Shown here: positions 36,329 to 59,144 of the stretch, one piece after another
Position numbering within the stretch: position 1 is the first letter of the stretch
Layout of the letters: each line of letters opens with the position of its first letter
Assembly: GCF_003952665.1 (NCBI RefSeq)
Contig: NZ_CP017946.1
Location: forward strand, 1-64,000
Source of the DNA: Bosea sp. Tri-49
Lineage (GTDB): Bacteria; Pseudomonadota; Alphaproteobacteria; Rhizobiales; Beijerinckiaceae
Direction: 5' to 3'
Length of the DNA: 64,000 nucleotides
The notes under the pieces: model-generated
Told to the model about the DNA's origin: nothing
What the model saw: only the letters and a program-made list of their open reading frames with translations
Databases searched by the model: none
Program-made: the position numbers and the translations under genes

Positions 36329-37264
36329 ATGATGACGGACATCGTTTGTATCGGCGAGCCTCTCGGCGAGTTCAACGCGACACGAGGCGAAACCGGCGCC
36401 TATCGCTTCGGTCATGGCGGCGACACCTCCAACTGCGCGGTCGCGGCAGCCCGGCAAGGGGCGAGCGTCGCCTACATCGGTGCGCTCGGCGATGACGAGC
36501 CCGGCCGTTCGCTGCGGTCACTATGGGCACAGGAAGGCGTCGACGACAGCCAGGTCTCGACCCATCCGTCGGCACCGACGGGGCTCTACTTCGTCTCCCA
36601 CGGCCCGCAGGGGCACGTCTTCTCCTATCTGCGCGCCGGTTCGGCGGCGAGCCTCTACGGCCCGGCGCAACTGCCGAAGCATGTCATCGCCTCCGCCAAG
36701 GTGATCCAGGCTTCCGGCATCAGCCAGGCGATCTCGGCGAGCGCCTGCGATGCGGTGTTCGAGGCTTTCGCGACGGCGCGCGAGAACGGCGTGCTGACAG
36801 CCTACGATACCAATCTCAGGCTGAAGCTCTGGCCGCTGACACGGGCGCGGGCGATCATCCATGCCGCCTGCGAGATGGCCGACATCGTCCTACCGGGCGA
36901 CGGCGACGCCAAGCTGCTGACCGGGCTGGAGCAGCCCGATGCCATCGTCGATTTCTACCTCAAGCTGGGCGCCAAAGTGGTGGCCCTGACGCTCGGCCAT
37001 GAGGGCTCACTGGTCGCGACGCCTTTGAGCCGCCAGCGTTTCGTGCCGATCAAGGTGGATGCGATCGACGCGACCGGCGCCGGCGATTGCTATGACGGTG
37101 CCTTCCTCGCCGAATACATCCGCACCGGCGACGCCTTCACGGCCGGAGCCTATGCCAATGTCGCGGCGGCTTTATCGACGCAGGGTTATGGGGCAGTGGC
37201 GCCGCTGCCACGCCGGGCTGCGGTCGAGGCGCGGATCGCGCAGGAAGTGGCTAGCCGAGCATGA
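36329..37264 (+). CDS. PfkB-family sugar kinase (2-keto-3-deoxygluconate kinase-like)
   Basis: A 311-aa ribokinase-fold enzyme. The N-terminal substrate signature is GHGGDTSNCAVAAARQGASVAYIGALGDD. The ATP/anion-hole motif is ATGAGDCYDGAFLAEYI, with the catalytic Asp. The overall pattern (IGEPLGEFNATRGETG at the start) resembles 2-dehydro-3-deoxygluconokinase. Substrate is not certain; ribose, fructose and adenosine kinases share the fold. It overlaps the next HAD gene by ATGA, so the two proteins are made together. This suggests a kinase-phosphatase pair on one sugar. Confidence 0.85.
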   Translation: MMTDIVCIGEPLGEFNATRGETGAYRFGHGGDTSNCAVAAARQGASVAYIGALGDDEPGRSLRSLWAQEGVDDSQVSTHPSAPTGLYFVSHGPQGHVFSYLRAGSAASLYGPAQLPKHVIASAKVIQASGISQAISASACDAVFEAFATARENGVLTAYDTNLRLKLWPLTRARAIIHAACEMADIVLPGDGDAKLLTGLEQPDAIVDFYLKLGAKVVALTLGHEGSLVATPLSRQRFVPIKVDAIDATGAGDCYDGAFLAEYIRTGDAFTAGAYANVAAALSTQGYGAVAPLPRRAAVEARIAQEVASRA

Positions 37265-38121
37265 GCGTTCCAGTTCTGATGGAAGCGGGCGCGCTGCTTG
37301 CGCGCTACGATGTGCTGATCAGCGATGTCTGGGGCGTCGTCCATGACGGCGTGCTGGCGCTCGATCCGGCCTGCGACGCCCTGATGCGCTATCGCGAGGG
37401 AGGCGGCACGGTGGTGCTGCTCTCGAACGCGCCGGGCCCCTCCGAGCAGATCGCCGGTGTGCTCGACGAAAAGCGCGTACCGCGCGCCGCCTGGGACCGG
37501 CTGGTGACCTCGGGCGACGTGACGCGGGCGCTGATCGCCGAGACGCATCTGCGCAAGGTTTACCACATCGGCGAGCATGGGGACCGGGCGGTGTTCGCGG
37601 GCTTCGACATCGAGCTCGTCGGCGAGGCCGAGGCCGAATTCGTCGTCGCGACCGAGCTCAACGATTATCGCCGCGAGACACCGGAACAGTACCGGCCGCT
37701 GCTATCGCGTTTCGCTGCGCGCGGATTGCCGTTCATCTGCGGCAATCCCGATCTCGTCGTCCATGTCGGCCATGACCTCCTGCCCTGTGCCGGGGCGCTG
37801 GCGGCGATCTATGAGGAGCTCGGCGGGCATGTCGCCTGGGCCGGCAAGCCGCATCGCCCGGCCTATGACCTCGCGCTGGCGGCCGCCTGCGAGGCGCGGA
37901 GAGGGCGCGATGTCGATCCGGCTCGCGTGCTCGTCATCGGCGATGCGGTCCGCACCGACCTCGCCGGCGCCAGGATGATGGGCTTCGACAGCCTGTTCAT
38001 TGCCGGCGGCATCCATCGCGACGAGACGATCCGGGATGGCTCTGTCGTTCCCGATGGGCTCGCGCGGGTCCTGGCGGCGCACCGGCCATTGCCGGTCGCG
38101 GCGATGGCGGCGCTGGGGTAA
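37261..38121 (+). CDS. HAD-family hydrolase, NagD-like (TIGR01459 type)
   Basis: A 286-aa HAD phosphatase of the NagD branch. Motif I is LISDVWGVVHDG with nucleophile Asp and general-acid Trp position (DVWGV), motif II LLSNAPGPS, motif III GKPHRPAYDLAL with the Lys, and motif IV IGDAVRTDLAGA. The TIGR01459 group has DVWGVxHDG in place of DxDG. Substrates are unknown for this group; NagD relatives act on phosphorylated sugars and nucleotides. Translationally coupled to the PfkB kinase upstream. Confidence 0.88.
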   Translation: MSVPVLMEAGALLARYDVLISDVWGVVHDGVLALDPACDALMRYREGGGTVVLLSNAPGPSEQIAGVLDEKRVPRAAWDRLVTSGDVTRALIAETHLRKVYHIGEHGDRAVFAGFDIELVGEAEAEFVVATELNDYRRETPEQYRPLLSRFAARGLPFICGNPDLVVHVGHDLLPCAGALAAIYEELGGHVAWAGKPHRPAYDLALAAACEARRGRDVDPARVLVIGDAVRTDLAGARMMGFDSLFIAGGIHRDETIRDGSVVPDGLARVLAAHRPLPVAAMAALG

Positions 38122-40803: not shown

Positions 40804-41931
40804 TCAATCCTTCGGAGCAGCGCGCGCCATCAGCGCATCCATGTCGATGAAATGGCCGGCGCGGTCACGCTTGGAGGCGAGATAGCGGACATTGTGGACG
40901 TTCGGGCGGCCGAGCACGCGCTGGGTCGCGGCGACTTCGAGCCCGGCGGCCTTGATCGCCCCGACCTTGAGCGGGTTGTTGGTCAGCGCCGTGACGCTGG
41001 AGACGCCGAGCTGCTTCAGCATCGCGGCGGCGAAATCGAAATGGCGCTGGTCGAGATCGAAGCCGAGCACCTCGTCGGCGTCATAGGTGTCCCAGCCCTG
41101 GCTCTGCAGCTTGTAGGCCCGCATCTTGTTGGAGATGCCGTTGCCGCGGCCTTCCTGGTCGAGATAGAGCAGGATGCCGCCCTCGTTCTGCGCCATCCAC
41201 TGCACGGTCTCGCGCAGTTGGTCGCCGCAATCGCATTTCAGCGAGCCGAAGAGGTCGCCGGTCAGGCAGGCCGAATGCAGCCGCACCGGCACGGCGGTCG
41301 AGAGATCCGGCTTGCCGACGATGATCGCGACCTGGTCGCGCAAGCCTTCGCCGCCGCGGAAGACGACGAACTCGGTATCGGGCGCACCTTCCAGCGGGAC
41401 CGGTGCACGGCCGACGATGGCAAGCCGTGCGACCTGAGCGGCGCGGTAGCCATTGAGGGCCTCGATCGTGACTTCGATCAACGGCTCGCCGGCGACCTGC
41501 TCGGCCGAAACCGGGACGAGGATCACCGCCGGCAGAACCAGTGCGAGGCGCGCCAGCTCGAGTGCGGCATTGTCGAGCGGGCCGGCCGGGCCGACAGGCG
41601 CATCGACGCGGGCATCGAGCTTCAGCGCAAGGGCCTCGATGCGCGGAAGGTCGATCAAGGGCATAGCGAGGATGCCGGTCTCCGCACGCCCTTTGGCGCC
41701 AAGACGGCGCAAGCGCGCAGCGCTCAGCACGAGGCGGGCATGGCCAGCGGAGAGATCGTCGAGACGGCTGGCGAGATCGGCCTCAGCGAGCTCGGCCGAC
41801 AACGCCAGTGCCAGATCGCCGCCATGGCGCAGCAGCACGGGGCGTGCAGCGCGGAACTCGGCGAGAGCGCGGTCGACGGTGACCAGATCGGTTTCACCCG
41901 GCCGGCCGAAAAGCGTACGCGACTGAGGCAT
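40804..41931 (-). CDS. ribA: GTP cyclohydrolase II with a degenerate DHBP-synthase-like N-terminal half
   Basis: First step of riboflavin synthesis: GTP to 2,5-diamino-6-ribosylamino-pyrimidinone phosphate plus formate. The C-terminal ~200 residues are a complete RibA: zinc Cys set in CLTGDLFGSLKCDCGDQL, YLDQEGRGNGISNKMRAYKLQ, and LTNNPLKV. The N-terminal ~165 residues (RALAEFRAARPVLLRHGGDLALALSAE) resemble a decayed RibB domain. They lack the acidic DDEDREN-like active site, so this half is probably structural or regulatory. The gene is 31 bases downstream of nothing on its strand and upstream of the YfhO-like gene. No other rib gene is present in the window. Confidence 0.92.
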   Translation of the reverse strand: MPQSRTLFGRPGETDLVTVDRALAEFRAARPVLLRHGGDLALALSAELAEADLASRLDDLSAGHARLVLSAARLRRLGAKGRAETGILAMPLIDLPRIEALALKLDARVDAPVGPAGPLDNAALELARLALVLPAVILVPVSAEQVAGEPLIEVTIEALNGYRAAQVARLAIVGRAPVPLEGAPDTEFVVFRGGEGLRDQVAIIVGKPDLSTAVPVRLHSACLTGDLFGSLKCDCGDQLRETVQWMAQNEGGILLYLDQEGRGNGISNKMRAYKLQSQGWDTYDADEVLGFDLDQRHFDFAAAMLKQLGVSSVTALTNNPLKVGAIKAAGLEVAATQRVLGRPNVHNVRYLASKRDRAGHFIDMDALMARAAPKD

Positions 41932-42187: not shown

Positions 42188-42772
42188 ATGACGCAGCGAC
42201 ATGACGAGGTGACGGCCGGCGCGGGACGCGCCGCGATCTACAGCCCGGTGGCGCGGTCCCTGCACTGGATCACCGCCGCGGCAGCGCTCGTGATGGTGCC
42301 GCTCGGGCTGGCCATGACCTATCGCGGCAACACGCTCGACATCTGGGACGGGGTGACCGACGCGCTTTATTCCTCGCACAAGCTGCTCGGCTTCCTCGTG
42401 CTCTGGCTCAGCGCTGGCCGGCTGATCTACCGGCTGATGCACGGCGCACCGCCCGACGAGCCGACGCTGGAATGGTGGCAGAAGGCCGCCTCGCATCTCG
42501 TGCATTGGGTGCTCTACGGCCTGCTGCTGATCGTGCCGCTGCTCGGCTGGATCGGTATCTCGCTGTTTCCGTCGCTGACGGTGTTCAACCTGTTCGATTT
42601 GCCGGCGCTGGCCGTGCCCAACGAAGAGGTAGCCAAGCGCGTGCTTTCCATCCATGGCTGGCTCGCCATCCTGCTGGCGCTGCTGGTCTGCGGGCATATC
42701 GCGGCGGCACTCTTCCACTATTTCATCCGCAAGGATGGCGTGCTGCGCCGGATGCTGCCCGGGCTGAAATAA
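42188..42772 (+). CDS. Cytochrome b561-family protein
   Basis: A 194-aa di-haem membrane protein. Four helices carry paired His ligands: SLHWITAAAALVMVPLGLAM, YSSHKLLGFLVLWLSAG, HLVHWVLYGLLLIVPLLGW and LSIHGWLAILLALLVCGHIAAAL. Bacterial b561 proteins pass electrons between quinol and other acceptors, for example superoxide. The ATG at 42188 lies behind a 256-base gap holding the promoter. The stop is 3 bases from the convergent Nudix gene. Confidence 0.9.
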   Translation: MTQRHDEVTAGAGRAAIYSPVARSLHWITAAAALVMVPLGLAMTYRGNTLDIWDGVTDALYSSHKLLGFLVLWLSAGRLIYRLMHGAPPDEPTLEWWQKAASHLVHWVLYGLLLIVPLLGWIGISLFPSLTVFNLFDLPALAVPNEEVAKRVLSIHGWLAILLALLVCGHIAAALFHYFIRKDGVLRRMLPGLK

Positions 42773-53200: not shown

Positions 53201-53959
53201 TCAGCGCGACAGCAGCGCGTAGACGTCGCCGGAATTGGCCTCGTGCGGCAGGTCGCGGATATGGGCGCGCATCGCTTCGGCATCGACCGCTTCGGGGAAG
53301 ACAAGTGCCTGGCTCTCGCCAAGCGCGACGTTGAAGCGATAGGGGCCGAGCGCGACGAGCCTGTCGAGACAGGCTTCGGCGACATCGCGCTGGATGGTGG
53401 TGAATTCGAAGGAGAGGGCGGGCGGCGTCTGGCCGAGGCCGGCGAGCACATTCGCCTCGAAGCCCTCGACGTCGATCTTGATGAAGACGGGCAGGCCGTA
53501 TTCGCCGATCAGCGCATCGAGCGTGGTGCAGGGCACGATGAGCTCGCGATCCCAGACCTGCTCGCGCCAGCCATCCTGGCCCTGCGCCGCGTCGACGAAC
53601 TCGCCCGAGAGGGTCGAGACCGTCGGGTTGGCGCTGTTGATCCTGAGCGTCGCGCTGCCTGCGCTGTCGCCGCAGGCGGCCTCGACCAGCGTCACCTTCG
53701 GATCACGGCCATGGATCAGGTGGAGCGCCCGGGCCGGGCCGGGCTGCGGCTCGAGCGCGACGACGCGCGCGCCGAGCCGGCGGAAGGAGGAGATGCGGTC
53801 GCCGACATGGGCGCCGATGTCGAAGGCGAGATCGCCCGGCCGCAGGAAGCGGGCATAGAGCGAGTCCATCGCGACCTTGCGGACATGGTCGCCATGGTAG
53901 ACGCGCAGCGAGCGCGCTACGCTTTTTGCCGTGCCTTTGGGATAGGCGACCGGCTTCAT
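53201..53959 (-). CDS. FkbM-family methyltransferase coupled to opgH
   Basis: A 252-aa SAM-dependent O-methyltransferase. SAM motif I is LAFDIGAHVGDRISSF near residue 44, acidic loop VVALEPQP, and the FkbM hallmark VFIKIDVEGFEANVLAGL follows. Such enzymes methylate hydroxyls on sugars and polyketides. The start overlaps the opgH stop codon as ATGA (53956-53959), so the protein is made with OpgH. That coupling suggests the methyl acceptor is an osmoregulated periplasmic glucan or its precursor, which is an inference. A longer frame through opgH exists but is not coding. Confidence 0.88.
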   Translation of the reverse strand: MKPVAYPKGTAKSVARSLRVYHGDHVRKVAMDSLYARFLRPGDLAFDIGAHVGDRISSFRRLGARVVALEPQPGPARALHLIHGRDPKVTLVEAACGDSAGSATLRINSANPTVSTLSGEFVDAAQGQDGWREQVWDRELIVPCTTLDALIGEYGLPVFIKIDVEGFEANVLAGLGQTPPALSFEFTTIQRDVAEACLDRLVALGPYRFNVALGESQALVFPEAVDAEAMRAHIRDLPHEANSGDVYALLSR

Positions 53960-55779
53960 CGGGCGTCGCCGCCCTGGATCGCGACGATCTCGGCCGGCGG
54001 GTCGAAATCCTCGGGAATACCGCAGAGACCCGAGCGGACGAACAGGGCGCCCAGCGCCGGCGCCGCGGTCAGCATGGCAAAGGGGATGGCGAGGATGTAG
54101 CCGGCGGTCAGCGGCAGCGACCAAATGAGAACGGTCGGCGACAGCACGGCGAGCGTGCCGAAGATGTAGAGCCCGAAGAGCAGATGCGGCCAGAGGCCGG
54201 CGAAGGCGGTGGCGAAGGAGAGGGCATGGGCATCGCGCGCCTGGCCGTTCCAGCCGATCTTCGCCTTGCCGAAGGCGAGGCCGATCATGAACAGCGTCGT
54301 CCGGAAGGTCGAGACGGCGCCCTGCAGGAAGGCGAAGATGATCTCGATCAGCGAGGAGACGACGAAGCGCAAGGTGCCGCCATAGCGCAGCGTGCCACCC
54401 TTGGTCAGCAGGATATCGGCGAAGCCGGCGAGCTTCGGCGAGAGGTACATCGTGAAGAACAGCACATAGAGGAAGGCGGCGAAGCCGGCGGGGTAATTGG
54501 CGATGGCGCGATCCTCCAGCACCTTCAGGGGCAAGAGCGCGATCATCAGCGTCCAGGCCGGCAGGCCGATGAACATCAGGATCGCCCAGGCGAGCTGGAA
54601 GCGGCTCATCGCCTTGAGGCCGGGGATGTCCATGATCTTGAGGTACTGCAGATTGCCGAGGCACCAGCGCAGGTCGCGCCGGGCGAATTCGAGCATGGTC
54701 GGCGGGTTCTCCTCCCAGCTGCCGGCCTCGACCGGGAGCACGCGGACCTCGTAGCCGGCGCGGCGCATCAGCGTCGCCTCGACCTGGTCGTGGCTCATGA
54801 TCGGTCCGCCGAGCGGCGGCCCGCCCGGCACGGTCGGCAGATGGCAATGATCGCGGAAGGGCGCGATCCGCACCATGGCGTTGTGACCCCAGAACGGGCC
54901 GCATTCGCCGATCCACCAGGCCGAGCCCATGGTGTAGGGCCGCATGCCGTGGCGCATGCCGAACTGGAAGATGCGGGCGAAGGCCGATTTGCTCGGCATG
55001 CCGACGACGAGGCTCTGCAGGATGCCGAGCTTCGGATAGGCCTGCATCATCCGGGCGAGCTTCACGATGGCGTCGCCAGACATGACGCTGTCGGCGTCAA
55101 GCGGCAGCATCAGCTCGTAGCGATCGCCCCAGCGCTCGCAGAAATCGCGGACATTGCCGGCCTTGTAGCCGGCATTGTCGCTGCGGCGGCGATAGACGAC
55201 GGTGCAATCCTCGCCGGCGTCGCGGGAGAGCTCGGCCGCAAGCGCCTCTTCGCGGGCGGCAACCGCGGGGTCATTCGTGTCGGAGAGCACGAAGTAATCG
55301 AACCAACCGCCTTCGCCGGTGGCGTTGACGCTGTCCTTGACGATGCGCAGTCGCGCGAAGGCGCGGGCGGGGTCTTCGTTGCGCAGCGTCATCAGCACGG
55401 CGGTGCGGACGGTGAGTGGCGTCTGCGCCTCACTGGCTGCGGCGAAGGGCGCAACCTGATCGAGCCCGTCCTTGGTGCCATGCAGCAGCCAGAGCCCGAT
55501 CACGGCGTTCCAGAAGCCGAGCACGGTCCAGGGCGCGCCGAACAGGAAGGCGATGAAGATCGCGATGTCGGCGAGGCTCCAGCCGCCGGCCGAGAGCATG
55601 CGCGACAGGCCGTAGAGTAGCGCCACCAGCGTGACGAGGTTCAGGGCCGCGACGAGCCAGCGCCGCGCCCGCAGGGTGGAGAAGGACTGCAGCCCCGCTG
55701 GCGTCAGCCTGGTGTCCTCTTGCGCCGCCGCCTGGAACGTGGTCGGAGCGGGACGCTGGTTCATGGCGGTTTCCGTCAT
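53956..55779 (-). CDS. opgH: Osmoregulated periplasmic glucan glucosyltransferase OpgH (MdoH)
   Basis: Inner-membrane GT2 enzyme that makes the beta-1,2-glucan backbone from UDP-glucose and moves it across the membrane. The 607-aa protein has two N-terminal TM helices (residues ~40-90), a cytoplasmic catalytic domain with LPLDADSVMSGDA (DxD) and RRDLRWCLGNLQYLK (RW motif), and several C-terminal helices. The usual partner OpgG, a periplasmic branching protein, is not in this window. Length is shorter than E. coli MdoH but normal for alphaproteobacteria. The ATG at 55779 has a weak binding site. Divergent from the PTPS cassette. Confidence 0.93.
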   Translation of the reverse strand: MTETAMNQRPAPTTFQAAAQEDTRLTPAGLQSFSTLRARRWLVAALNLVTLVALLYGLSRMLSAGGWSLADIAIFIAFLFGAPWTVLGFWNAVIGLWLLHGTKDGLDQVAPFAAASEAQTPLTVRTAVLMTLRNEDPARAFARLRIVKDSVNATGEGGWFDYFVLSDTNDPAVAAREEALAAELSRDAGEDCTVVYRRRSDNAGYKAGNVRDFCERWGDRYELMLPLDADSVMSGDAIVKLARMMQAYPKLGILQSLVVGMPSKSAFARIFQFGMRHGMRPYTMGSAWWIGECGPFWGHNAMVRIAPFRDHCHLPTVPGGPPLGGPIMSHDQVEATLMRRAGYEVRVLPVEAGSWEENPPTMLEFARRDLRWCLGNLQYLKIMDIPGLKAMSRFQLAWAILMFIGLPAWTLMIALLPLKVLEDRAIANYPAGFAAFLYVLFFTMYLSPKLAGFADILLTKGGTLRYGGTLRFVVSSLIEIIFAFLQGAVSTFRTTLFMIGLAFGKAKIGWNGQARDAHALSFATAFAGLWPHLLFGLYIFGTLAVLSPTVLIWSLPLTAGYILAIPFAMLTAAPALGALFVRSGLCGIPEDFDPPAEIVAIQGGDAR

Positions 55780-55820: not shown

Positions 55821-56813
55821 GTGGTAAAGCCGGCAATTGCGAATGAAGCAAGCGCGCAGGCGACCGCGCTCTGGTATGCCGCCGCGCGTGAATGCGTCCT
55901 GAACGCGGAAGAGTTGCCTGCGCCTGCGCCAGGCGACTGCCTTGTGCGCACGCTTTGGAGCGGCATCAGCCGCGGGACCGAAAGGCTGGTCTTCGACGGC
56001 CGTGTGCCCGAGAGCGAATATGAGCGCATGCGAGCCCCCCTTCAGCAGGGCGCGTTCCCGTTCCCGGTGAAATACGGCTACTGCGCCGTCGGCATTGTGG
56101 ATGCGGGGCCGGCCGAGCTGCTCGGCAAGCGGGTTTTCTGCCTGCATCCGCATCAGGACCGCTTCGTCGTGCCGGCGGACCGCGTGGCGTTGGTGCCCGA
56201 AAGCGTCCCGATGCGGCGTGCCGTGCTTGCCGCGAACATGGAAACCGCGCTCAACGCACATTGGGATGCCGGCTCGGGGCCAGCCGACCGCATCGTCGTG
56301 GTCGGTGGCGGCGTGCTCGGTCTGCTCGTTGCATACCTCGCAGCGAGGCTGCCGGGTGCGGAGGTGACGCTGGTCGATCTCGACGACAGCCGTGCCGAAA
56401 TCGCTGCCTCGCTGGGCTGCCGGTTCGCGTTGCCGGCGGACTGTCCGCAGGATGCCGATGTTGTCTTCCATGCCAGCGCCAGCGCTGCCGGCCTCGCCAC
56501 CGCGATCGGTGCAGCCGGCTTCGAGGCACGGATCGTCGAATTGAGCTGGTATGGCGAAGGCAGCGTTGCGGCACCGCTTGGCGGTGCTTTCCATGCCCGA
56601 CGCCTGCAGCTCGTTTCCTCCCAGGTCGGGCAGGTTTCGCCTTCGCGGCGGGCGCGCTTCGATTATGCGCGACGGGCCAATGCCGCGCTGGCGCTGCTGG
56701 CCGACGCGCGGCTCGATGCGCTGATCACGGACGAGATCGCGTTCAGAGATGCGCCTTCGCGATTGCCGGCGCTGTTCGCCGGCGCAGGGCTGACGGCGGT
56801 TCTGCGCTATTGA
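55821..56813 (+). CDS. MDR-type dehydrogenase, BchC-like, first gene of the PTPS cassette
   Basis: A 330-aa member of the medium-chain dehydrogenase superfamily. The catalytic-domain motif SGISRGTERLVFDG and KYGYCAVGIVDAG replace the usual zinc-binding ADH sequences; the structural four-Cys lobe is missing. The cofactor domain has VVVGGGVLGLLVAYLAA and Asp at TLVDLDDSR, favouring NAD(H). Closest pattern is to the BchC-like branch that oxidises side-chain hydroxyls. The GTG start has GGAGGG 6 bases upstream. It leads the cassette of four co-oriented genes and is divergent from opgH with 41 bases between starts. Substrate unknown. Confidence 0.82.
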   Translation: MVKPAIANEASAQATALWYAAARECVLNAEELPAPAPGDCLVRTLWSGISRGTERLVFDGRVPESEYERMRAPLQQGAFPFPVKYGYCAVGIVDAGPAELLGKRVFCLHPHQDRFVVPADRVALVPESVPMRRAVLAANMETALNAHWDAGSGPADRIVVVGGGVLGLLVAYLAARLPGAEVTLVDLDDSRAEIAASLGCRFALPADCPQDADVVFHASASAAGLATAIGAAGFEARIVELSWYGEGSVAAPLGGAFHARRLQLVSSQVGQVSPSRRARFDYARRANAALALLADARLDALITDEIAFRDAPSRLPALFAGAGLTAVLRY

Positions 56814-56863
56814 CGTCGCGCACCGGCCTTCGCCAAGACTGCGCGCGCTGAAGGAGACTGCCC

Positions 56864-57265
56864 ATGTTTTCCGTCGAAGTCCGCGATCGCATCATGATCG
56901 GCCATTCGCTGCCGGACCCATTCTTCGGCCCGGCGCAGGCAATGCATGGCGCGACCTTCGTCGTCGATGTCGCCTTCTTCCGCGAGAACCTGACCCGCCA
57001 GAACGTGGTGGTCGATATCGGCGCGGCGCTGACCGTGCTGAACCAGACGCTGAAGCCGCTGAACTACCAGAACCTCGACGCTCTGCCGCAGTTCGCGGGC
57101 GTACTGACCACCACCGAATTCCTCTGCAAATACATCTTCGACGCGATGGCGGCAGCGGCACGCTCAGGCAAGCTTGGCGCAGATGGCGCCGATTTGGCCA
57201 AGATCCGCGTCACCCTGCATGAGACCGATCTCGCCAGGGCGAGCTATGAGGGCGCGCTCGCGTGA
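56864..57265 (+). CDS. Divergent 6-pyruvoyl-tetrahydropterin synthase/QueD homologue
   Basis: A 133-aa T-fold protein. Position by position with QueD: zinc ligands His14 and His28 kept, but the third (HGH) is Ala30 (MHGATF). The catalytic Cys just before the HGH motif is absent (FFGPAQAMHG). The catalytic Asp-His of the LDH motif is Asn67-Tyr68 (LNYQNL). The substrate-binding Glu near the end (LHETD) and Asp51 in VVDIG remain. So it is unlikely to perform standard PTPS chemistry. It may bind a pterin-like molecule or act on a new substrate. Translationally coupled (GTGA) to the glycosyltransferase. Confidence 0.8.
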   Translation: MFSVEVRDRIMIGHSLPDPFFGPAQAMHGATFVVDVAFFRENLTRQNVVVDIGAALTVLNQTLKPLNYQNLDALPQFAGVLTTTEFLCKYIFDAMAAAARSGKLGADGADLAKIRVTLHETDLARASYEGALA

Positions 57266-58311
57266 GCGAGATCGTCTTCGCCATTCCGGGCGATCTCTCG
57301 CTGCCGACCGGCGGCTACGCTTATGATCGGCGGCTCCTGGCCGAATGGCGCGAGATGGGTGTCGCGGCGCGGCACCTGCCGTTGCCGGGAGGCTTTCCTA
57401 CTCCGAGCGAAGTCGATCTCGCCGAGACTGGCCGGGCGATCCTGTCGCAACCCTATGACGGCGTGCTGCTGATCGACGGGCTCGCCTACGGCGCCTTTCC
57501 TGAGAGCGTCGCGGCCGGGCTTGCGGGGCGCGTCGTCGCGCTGGTGCATCACCCGCTCGGGCTGGAGACGGGGCTGTCGCCGAAACAGGCGGCGGAGTTC
57601 GTCAGGCGCGAAATGGCGGCGCTGCACTATGCGTCAGCGGTGGTCGTCACCAGCGAGACGACCAAGCGGCTGCTCGCCGCCGATTTCGCCGTGCCGGCGG
57701 AGCGGGTCACCGTGGCGGAGCCGGGCGTCGATCCGGCGGAGCGTGCGGCAGGCTCCGGCGGCAAGACGGTCGAGCTGCTGGCGGTGGGCTCGCTCGTGCC
57801 GCGCAAGGGCTATGATGTTCTCATCGCGGCGCTGGAGGGACTGGCCGACAAGCCGTGGCGGCTCACCATCGTTGGCGCGGATGATCGCGCTCCTGCCACC
57901 ACGGCTGCCCTGATGGCGCAGATCGCCGCCACCGGGCTGTCCGGGCGGGTCAGGCTTGCCGGTGCGCTCGGGCAGGCCGAGCTCGACGCCGCCTATGCGA
58001 ATGCCGATCTCTTCGTCATGCCTTCGCTGTTCGAAGGCTATGGCATGGTGCTGACCGAGGCGCTGGCGCGCGGCCTGCCAATCCTGTGCACGACCGGCGG
58101 AGCCGCTACTGAGACGGCTCCCGACGACGCGGCGCTGAAGGTGCCGCCGGGCGATGTCGGAGCCTTGCGCGCCGGGCTGGCACGGTTGTTGGATGATCCA
58201 AAGGAGCGTCGACAGCGCGCCGACGCAGCCTGGCATGCGGCCGGCGCATTGCCGCGCTGGCGGCGGACTGCGACGATCGTCGCCGAAGTGTGTGCGAAGG
58301 TTTCCCCATGA
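57262..58311 (+). CDS. Glycosyltransferase family 4
   Basis: A 349-aa GT-B enzyme. The acceptor domain starts IVFAIPGDLSLPTGGYAYDRRLL with a Gly-rich loop; the donor domain has VGSLVPRKGYDVLIAAL and the EX7E motif in EGYGMVLTEALARGLPI, typical of retaining GT4 enzymes using nucleotide sugars. Start GTG at 57262 overlaps the PTPS-like stop by 4 bases; the stop overlaps the methyltransferase start by ATGA. No membrane helix or export gene is present, so the acceptor is probably a cytoplasmic small molecule. Confidence 0.9.
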   Translation: MSEIVFAIPGDLSLPTGGYAYDRRLLAEWREMGVAARHLPLPGGFPTPSEVDLAETGRAILSQPYDGVLLIDGLAYGAFPESVAAGLAGRVVALVHHPLGLETGLSPKQAAEFVRREMAALHYASAVVVTSETTKRLLAADFAVPAERVTVAEPGVDPAERAAGSGGKTVELLAVGSLVPRKGYDVLIAALEGLADKPWRLTIVGADDRAPATTAALMAQIAATGLSGRVRLAGALGQAELDAAYANADLFVMPSLFEGYGMVLTEALARGLPILCTTGGAATETAPDDAALKVPPGDVGALRAGLARLLDDPKERRQRADAAWHAAGALPRWRRTATIVAEVCAKVSP

Positions 58312-59144
58312 GCGGATTTTCCCCCGATTGGCTCGCTCTGCGCGAACCGGCCGACCATGCCGCCCGCAACCCGCAAGTGCTCGCCGCGGTCGGCTCGACC
58401 TTCGCCGGGCGGCAGTCGCTCTCGGTCGTCGATCTCGGTTGCGGCGCCGGCTCGAATCTGCGCGGCAGCTACAGTGCGCTGCCTGTGCGCCAGCACTGGA
58501 CACTGGTCGATGCCGATAGTCGCTTGCTTTCGGTGGCACGGCGCAAGCTCGCCGAATGGGCCGACGAGGCGCAGGAACAGGGCGAGGAGCTCGTCCTGCG
58601 CAAGGACGACAAGACGCTGACGGTGGATTTCCGGCAGGCGGACCTGACCAAAGAGCTCGAATGGGTGCTGGGCTGGCAGCCGGACCTGGTCACTGCCGCG
58701 GCGCTGTTCGATCTCGCCTCGGCGCGCTGGCTCGAACGTTTCGCGGCCTCGCTCGTCAGCATGCGGCTGCCGCTCTATACCGTGCTGACCTATGACGGCC
58801 GCGAGAACTGGGAGCCAGCGCATCCGGAAGACCAGCGCATGCTCGCCGCCTTCCACCATCACCAGCGCAGCGACAAGGGCTTCGGCCCGGCGACCGGACC
58901 CGATGCCACCGAAGCGCTGGCCCAGGCCTTCCGCAAGGCAGGCACGGCGGTCACGGTCGGCGAGAGTCCGTGGCAACTTGGGCCAGACCAGTCCGACCTG
59001 ATCCGCGAACTGGCTGCTGGGATCGCCGCTGCTGTGAGCGAGACGGGCCATGTCTCACCGGAGGCGATTGCTGGCTGGCTGGAAGCCAAGCGCGGTGCGT
59101 CGGTGAGCATCGGCCATCAGGATCTGTGGGCGCGGCCGGTGTGA
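58308..59144 (+). CDS. SAM-dependent methyltransferase, last gene of the PTPS cassette
   Basis: A 278-aa class I methyltransferase. SAM motif I is SVVDLGCGAGSNLRG near residue 42, with acidic loop TLVDADSRLLS. A methyltransferase core then runs to about residue 165, and a C-terminal extension (DQSDLIRELAAGIAAAVSETGHV) follows. Overlaps the glycosyltransferase by ATGA, so the two are co-translated. The acceptor is unknown. The order MDR-PTPS-GT4-MT suggests stepwise building of a decorated small molecule. Confidence 0.87.
   Translation: MSGFSPDWLALREPADHAARNPQVLAAVGSTFAGRQSLSVVDLGCGAGSNLRGSYSALPVRQHWTLVDADSRLLSVARRKLAEWADEAQEQGEELVLRKDDKTLTVDFRQADLTKELEWVLGWQPDLVTAAALFDLASARWLERFAASLVSMRLPLYTVLTYDGRENWEPAHPEDQRMLAAFHHHQRSDKGFGPATGPDATEALAQAFRKAGTAVTVGESPWQLGPDQSDLIRELAAGIAAAVSETGHVSPEAIAGWLEAKRGASVSIGHQDLWARPV

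Follow-up and report, generated by a model that had tools for sequence, protein, structure and literature searches.

A four-gene cassette in Bosea sp. Tri-49 is one block of a larger conserved gene set, which includes GTP cyclohydrolase II (GCH II), a RibD-type reductase, a creatininase, a CDP-alcohol phosphatidyltransferase and others. The stretch analyzed (the window) comprises 64,000 nucleotides, positions 1 to 64,000 of contig NZ_CP017946.1 (assembly GCF_003952665.1, forward strand). The cassette encodes an MDR-type dehydrogenase, a T-fold protein resembling PTPS and QueD (the PTPS-like protein), a GT4 glycosyltransferase and a class I S-adenosylmethionine (SAM) methyltransferase. Judged by sequence, the PTPS-like protein is of the already known SCO6650 type, with a solved structure, and its residue losses are a trait of that family; what appears to be new is the conserved gene set linked to GCH II. 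We propose, with a probability of about 0.4, that a block of GCH II and cytochrome b561 genes in the window and the cassette together convert GTP to a pterin-like compound that is methylated and glycosylated, and that the opened pyrimidine is bound and closed by the PTPS-like protein, for which we predict no zinc.

The PTPS-like protein matches the Pfam PTPS family (E 3e-20) and falls far under the curated cut-offs of the QueD model (29.9 against 89) and the 6PTHBS model (25.5 against 125). A whole-genome search found no second PTPS-family match in Bosea. In the alignment with E. coli QueD and PTPS chains proposed by the first-pass annotation, H14 and H28 occupy two zinc-ligand positions, the third is Ala30, and the positions of the Asp-His pair hold Asn67-Tyr68. 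PTPS and QueD enzymes are described with the Cys or Glu motifs CxxxHGH, CxxxxxHGH or ExxHGH (PMC5041015); the three possible places of the catalytic Cys or Glu, located by these motifs, are held by Ala24, Gly22 and Gln25. Among 112 orthologs, H14, G22, A24, H28, A30 and E120 are each found in 112/112, D51, D72 and E85 are also invariant, and Gln25 is replaced by Arg in one only. The motif FGxAQxxHGAT is present in 111/112. The missing catalytic Cys and the retention of two of three zinc ligands, both noticed in the first-pass annotation, are thus borne out across the family. Its third observation, Asn-Tyr in place of Asp-His, holds for the window protein, and DH occurs in 0/112 orthologs, but NY itself is not conserved (54/112; the others have NF, NM, AY, TL, DY and further pairs), which rules out Asn-Tyr as a new catalytic pair.

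The protein shares the T-fold with canonical PTPS-I, II and III and lacks their catalytic Cys or Glu, their set of three zinc His and their Asp-His pair. It matches SCO6650 of Streptomyces coelicolor (PDB 3d7j) in sequence and fold over the full length, with the same residue losses and the FGxAQxxHGAT motif. SCO6650 reportedly binds no zinc and has no PTPS activity. The family is large, and public records often name its members 6-carboxytetrahydropterin synthase, a reaction that they are unlikely to perform. The suggestion of a new reaction or a binding role is plausible as far as a role other than that of PTPS is concerned; the protein kind itself is not new.

A match to the PTPS-like protein at 48% identity or more was found in 22 of 299 sampled Pseudomonadota genomes, Bosea included (26 at E 1e-3), and a match is present in 23 of 81 genomes of the window's order (Hyphomicrobiales for Bosea), again with its own. 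A scan of genome contigs gave at least 590 relatives; the best 80, which were kept, belong to Pseudomonadota, Actinomycetota and metagenome-assembled genomes labelled Gemmatimonadales, Acidobacteria and Nannocystaceae. The gene also lies on 20 plasmid records. The 112 loci compared are the window, 21 loci of the Pseudomonadota sample, 10 of the 20 plasmid loci and these best 80, which were chosen by their match to a Thiodictyon-led alignment rather than at random. At least two pairs (L048/L109 and L053/L089) may each be one genome counted twice, and several locus contigs end within 10 kb. Neighbors were counted by profile search with the recurring neighbors, within 10 kb and at 30 bits or more, so that a few may be paralogues. 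The association tests given below are uncorrected for relatedness.

The neighborhood is conserved. Within 10 kb, the MDR-type gene was found in 110 of the 112 loci, GT4 in 106 and the methyltransferase in 102, followed by the CDP-alcohol phosphatidyltransferase (82), the RibD-type reductase (80), an LPG-synthase-type membrane protein (67), GCH II (56), creatininase (47), FkbM (29), MdoH (23) and cytochrome b561 (9). At 20 other loci of the window's own genome, which served for comparison, these profiles found none of MDR, PTPS, GT4, the methyltransferase, the LPG-type protein, FkbM and MdoH. The complete cassette is present within 5 kb in 99/112 loci, with the same order and strand in 97/112, the outcome that the first-pass annotation had named as support, and the MDR-type gene nearly always adjoins the PTPS-like gene. 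The exceptions are two Streptomyces plasmids, where the PTPS-like gene stands alone (L064, L072), two loci without nearby GT4 (L039, L069), two without the methyltransferase (L045, L047), and seven in which GT4 and/or the methyltransferase is absent within 5 kb, some of them at contig ends (L073, L082, L092, L111, L113, L142, L151). On the two plasmids, the copies (L064:12001-12426 and L072:10001-10399) have MEKHLA, cupin and MBL-fold genes nearby. In five non-alphaproteobacterial loci (L050, L052, L054, L055, L056), GT4 and methyltransferase form one frame of about 650 residues, and Pfam finds both domains in that of L052.

Every open reading frame of the window with at least 150 codons between stops was also compared with the other 111 loci, with no candidates picked beforehand, a scan for which the PTPS-like gene is too short. 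Only GCH II (56 loci), cytochrome b561 (8), FkbM (31), MdoH (21), MDR (109), GT4 (103), the methyltransferase (98) and frames antisense to them recur in five or more loci; all the rest recur in at most 3. FkbM and MdoH lie just upstream of the cassette. GCH II and cytochrome b561 form a second block about 13 kb away from it, and this block and the link to GCH II go beyond what the first-pass annotation had noticed.

The association with GCH II is seen beyond the loci themselves. In the sample of 81 genomes from the order, 18 have a strong GCH II match (E 1e-45, a cut set after the table had been seen), and 16 of these carry the PTPS-like gene; among the remaining 63 it is present in 7 (Fisher 9e-10). 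At a looser cut of E 1e-30, the counts are 17/30 and 6/51 (Fisher 2.7e-5). The sister loci L036 to L038 carry, one after the other, cytochrome b561, the RibD-type reductase and GCH II. Read on the minus strand, the window has cytochrome b561 and then GCH II with 256 bases between them, so that the RibD-type gene is absent exactly at its position in the relatives. Eleven genomes that have the PTPS-like gene were tested for cluster-type RibD, and it was found at 222 bits or more in 9 (5 of them already known from the locus search), the two others being Bosea (G000) and G314, and in none of 5 tested genomes without it, where the best matches reach 78 to 107 bits. In G345, RibD-type reductase and GCH II stand side by side (C1:4883726-4885701), far from the PTPS-like gene.

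The cluster GCH II enzymes differ at the position of Tyr105. Of 58 matches, 57 could be aligned on the E. coli enzyme, the window copy included, after a fragment of fewer than 150 residues was dropped. All 57 have the three zinc Cys, and the position of Tyr105 holds Tyr in 39, Met in 11, His in 6 and Ile in 1, the last in Halomonas halmophila (L128:14276). The window copy has the three Cys, Tyr105, Asp126 and Arg128, all the residues expected of GCH II. Met120 of the Streptomyces fungicidicus GCH II aligns with Tyr105, and SCO6655, with Met at this position, is said to stop at the formyl compound. A creatininase is present in the locus of 18/18 non-Tyr enzymes and of 23/39 Tyr enzymes (Fisher 0.001); in Actinomycetota alone, the counts are 17/17 and 0/4, the four being from Actinoplanes and Micromonospora. 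The cluster creatininases score higher on MftE and creatininase models than on archaeal ArfB. In S. meliloti, this deformylation is carried out by BrbF, a formamidase of the creatininase family that is common in Rhizobiales and serves internal riboflavin synthesis (PMC9478397). Such a division of labor, in which the non-Tyr GCH II would open GTP and the creatininase-family protein would deformylate, fits the sequences here. Where BrbF supplies riboflavin, GCH II could be available for other tasks. In Bosea, five creatininase-family members were found. The highest score among them is 199.5 bits, whereas the 10th percentile of the cluster members is 241, and none was assigned to the cluster type.

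The proposed pathway would run as follows. First, GCH II would open GTP to 2,5-diamino-6-ribosylamino-pyrimidinone phosphate, the known chemistry of its family; in many actinomycetes it likely halts at the formyl compound, which the clustered creatininase-family protein would then deformylate. Second, the T-fold protein probably grips the 2-amino-4-oxo face through Glu120 and would perform the ring-closing half of the reaction of GTP cyclohydrolase I, an enzyme that itself has a T-fold with a Glu anchor. Zinc would not be needed for this half. Third, the MDR-type dehydrogenase and, in most loci examined, the RibD-type reductase would adjust the side chain or the ring, and fourth, by their families, the methyltransferase and GT4 would decorate the product. 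In many other lineages, the product may be linked to a lipid by the CDP-alcohol phosphatidyltransferase together with a flippase-like protein. The first-pass annotation had proposed that the cassette makes a glycosylated, methylated, possibly pterin-derived molecule; a pterin-related product is plausible, but the cassette is only part of the equipment.

Several points weigh against this pathway. We know of no product, activity or mutant for the set. GCH II lies within 10 kb in just 56/112 loci, and 7 of the 23 genomes of the order with the PTPS-like gene have no strong GCH II. The window GCH II could itself serve riboflavin synthesis; the Bosea genome has two other GCH II-family matches, one without a visible zinc Cys motif, which we take to be a RibB-fused copy (the one without the motif) and a URC1-like protein. 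In the Bosea genome no cluster-type RibD was found, the best match (84.5 bits) being a 423-codon frame that resembles housekeeping RibD, nor any CDP-alcohol transferase or LPG-type protein of the cluster type. Among actinomycete loci with non-Tyr GCH II, the stretch covered by the search shows no RibD-type gene in 12/17. Creatininase also fails as a strict marker of a formyl-stopping GCH II, because the link runs one way and 23 Tyr-type enzymes have it too. Finally, ring closure is an inferred step, and the T-fold protein could bind without catalysis.

An unlikely alternative is that the PTPS-like protein is a non-catalytic binder of a pterin or purine (a carrier, sensor or scaffold) for the MDR-type dehydrogenase, with the chemistry done elsewhere. 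The universal loss of the Cys, the Asp-His pair and the third zinc His would agree with it, as would the near-constant partnership with MDR, whereas the invariant H14, H28, D51, D72, E85 and E120 exceed what a bare pocket seems to need.

Quite unlikely is a variant in which the ribosyl is first converted to a ribityl chain through reduction by the RibD-type enzyme. MDR would then oxidize this chain at C2' to a ketone identical with the Amadori product of GTP cyclohydrolase I, and ring closure would fall to the T-fold protein. RibD-type members do match models of archaeal 2,5-diamino-6-ribosylamino-pyrimidinone phosphate reductase (below cut-off), MDR matches include polyol dehydrogenases, and both genes are frequent (80/112 and 110/112). 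Moreover, MDR and PTPS-like genes are retained in three loci without GT4 or methyltransferase within 5 kb, two of them with RibD (L082, L151) and the third with lipid-type genes only (L092). However, the MDR matches are weak and general, no cluster-type RibD was found in Bosea or G314, and the 12 actinomycete loci mentioned show no RibD-type gene in the searched stretch.

To be rated just as low is the idea that the genes make a lipid, or a glycolipid of the cell surface, with a pyrimidine or pterin head group, built and flipped by GT4, MdoH, FkbM, the CDP-alcohol transferase and the LPG-type protein. Among the 90 loci not known to be alphaproteobacterial, the CDP-alcohol transferase is present in 77 and the LPG-type protein in 64, and what we take to be the CDP-alcohol motif is conserved across 79 members. 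These two genes suggest a lipid-linked form in those loci, but they occur in only 5/22 and 3/22 alphaproteobacterial loci and, as said, were not found in Bosea.

A still broader scheme is very unlikely: that several phyla share a GTP-to-pterin road independent of GTP cyclohydrolase I, on which GCH II (with a formamidase where needed) opens GTP, RibD and MDR first reduce and then re-oxidize the chain, so that the carbonyl passes from C1' to C2' with no Amadori rearrangement, the zinc-free T-fold protein closes the ring, and the methylated, glycosylated product is joined to a phospholipid and turned to the outer side in many lineages. Neither a decay of QueD confined to this strain nor a fortuitous row of genes is a likely reading, and both can be dismissed: Bosea has no other PTPS-family gene, but relatives in several phyla carry the same losses (112/112) rather than an intact Cys and Asp-His set, and the gene order is the same in 97/112.

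The members found in the window are given in Table 1.

Table 1. Members of the gene set in the window, with coordinates in window positions
Feature	Position	Strand	Remarks
GTP cyclohydrolase II	40804..41931	-	second block; zinc Cys and Tyr all present
Cytochrome b561-type gene	42188..42772	+	adjoins GCH II; 95.6 bits
FkbM-type methyltransferase	53201..53959	-	4-base overlap with MdoH
MdoH-type membrane glucosyltransferase	53956..55764	-	921 bits, cut-off 884; divergent from cassette
MDR-type dehydrogenase	55821..56813	+	closest named family BchC (62 bits, cut-off 291); zinc-ligand motifs replaced (SRGTE, YGY)
PTPS/QueD-like T-fold protein	56864..57265	+	SCO6650 type; no catalytic Cys or Asp-His pair; Ala30 at third zinc His; Glu120 present
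GT4 glycosyltransferase	57262..58311	+	Pfam; overlaps preceding gene by 4 bases
Class I SAM methyltransferase	58308..59144	+	overlaps preceding gene by 4 bases; methyltransferase fold in predicted model

The layout of four co-oriented genes, the last three overlapping, was correctly read in the first-pass annotation; the overlap bases are GTGA and ATGA, and AAGGAG stands upstream of the PTPS-like gene. Pfam places GT4 in Glycos_transf_1 (E 3e-29), and two matches stay below the cut-off, ADH_zinc_N on MDR (27.1 against 31.8 bits) and Methyltransf_25 on the cassette methyltransferase (26.4 against 27). The replaced zinc motifs of MDR, counted against what we take to be the usual ones, are conserved among the cluster members. 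A sequence search of the PDB gave no match for the cassette methyltransferase, and its predicted fold gave nothing specific about a substrate. MdoH may be a gene of periplasmic glucan synthesis; no MdoG was found in the window, but the 6.0 Mb contig has four MdoG homologues elsewhere, located at 1.2, 2.1, 4.6 and 5.6 Mb. Near GCH II, genes for a PfkB-type kinase and, by eye, a HAD-type protein overlap by 4 bases (36329-38121), and L068 and L069 likewise have a gene for PfkB or ribokinase close to their cassette.

The solved member (PDB 3d7j) was released in 2008 and is still listed as uncharacterized; the gene sets tie its family to GCH II and with this give it a testable substrate. If the proposal is true, a pathway branches from a riboflavin precursor to pteridine-type products in Streptomyces, Halomonas, Variovorax, Methylosinus and Bosea-like bacteria, and copies of GCH II, RibD and creatininase in such genomes should not be taken as riboflavin genes unchecked. 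SCO6652 is, by its number, presumably a member of the set. It has log2 values of 0.8, 4.3 and 4.1 in the second mycelium at 24, 48 and 72 h (PMC3610822), and SCO6655 expression is described as running opposite to the modelled riboflavin flux (PMC2853524). No description of the GCH II-linked gene set was found in the open-licence literature, a search that left subscription papers outside and most titles unopened.

Compared with known systems, the predicted product class, a glycosylated pterin, is that of the cyanobacterial pterin glycosides. The neighborhood of SCO6650 has the same type of protein; the Bosea set differs from it in being split into two blocks, in its Tyr-type GCH II and in the absence of a CDP-alcohol transferase, an LPG-type gene and a creatininase from its cluster, a comparison made with sequences that did not include the locus of S. 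coelicolor. The BrbF and ArfB formamidases, working with ArfA or GCH III, split GTP opening from deformylation, and the creatininase-family protein beside a GCH II that likely stops early (the Tyr105 change) resembles them. Unlike those systems, the set described here is clustered with a PTPS-like protein, and the window has no clustered creatininase. From QueD and PTPS-I, II and III (COG0720), whose Cys or Glu motifs are given above (PMC5041015), the Bosea protein is set apart by FGxAQxxHGAT in their place.

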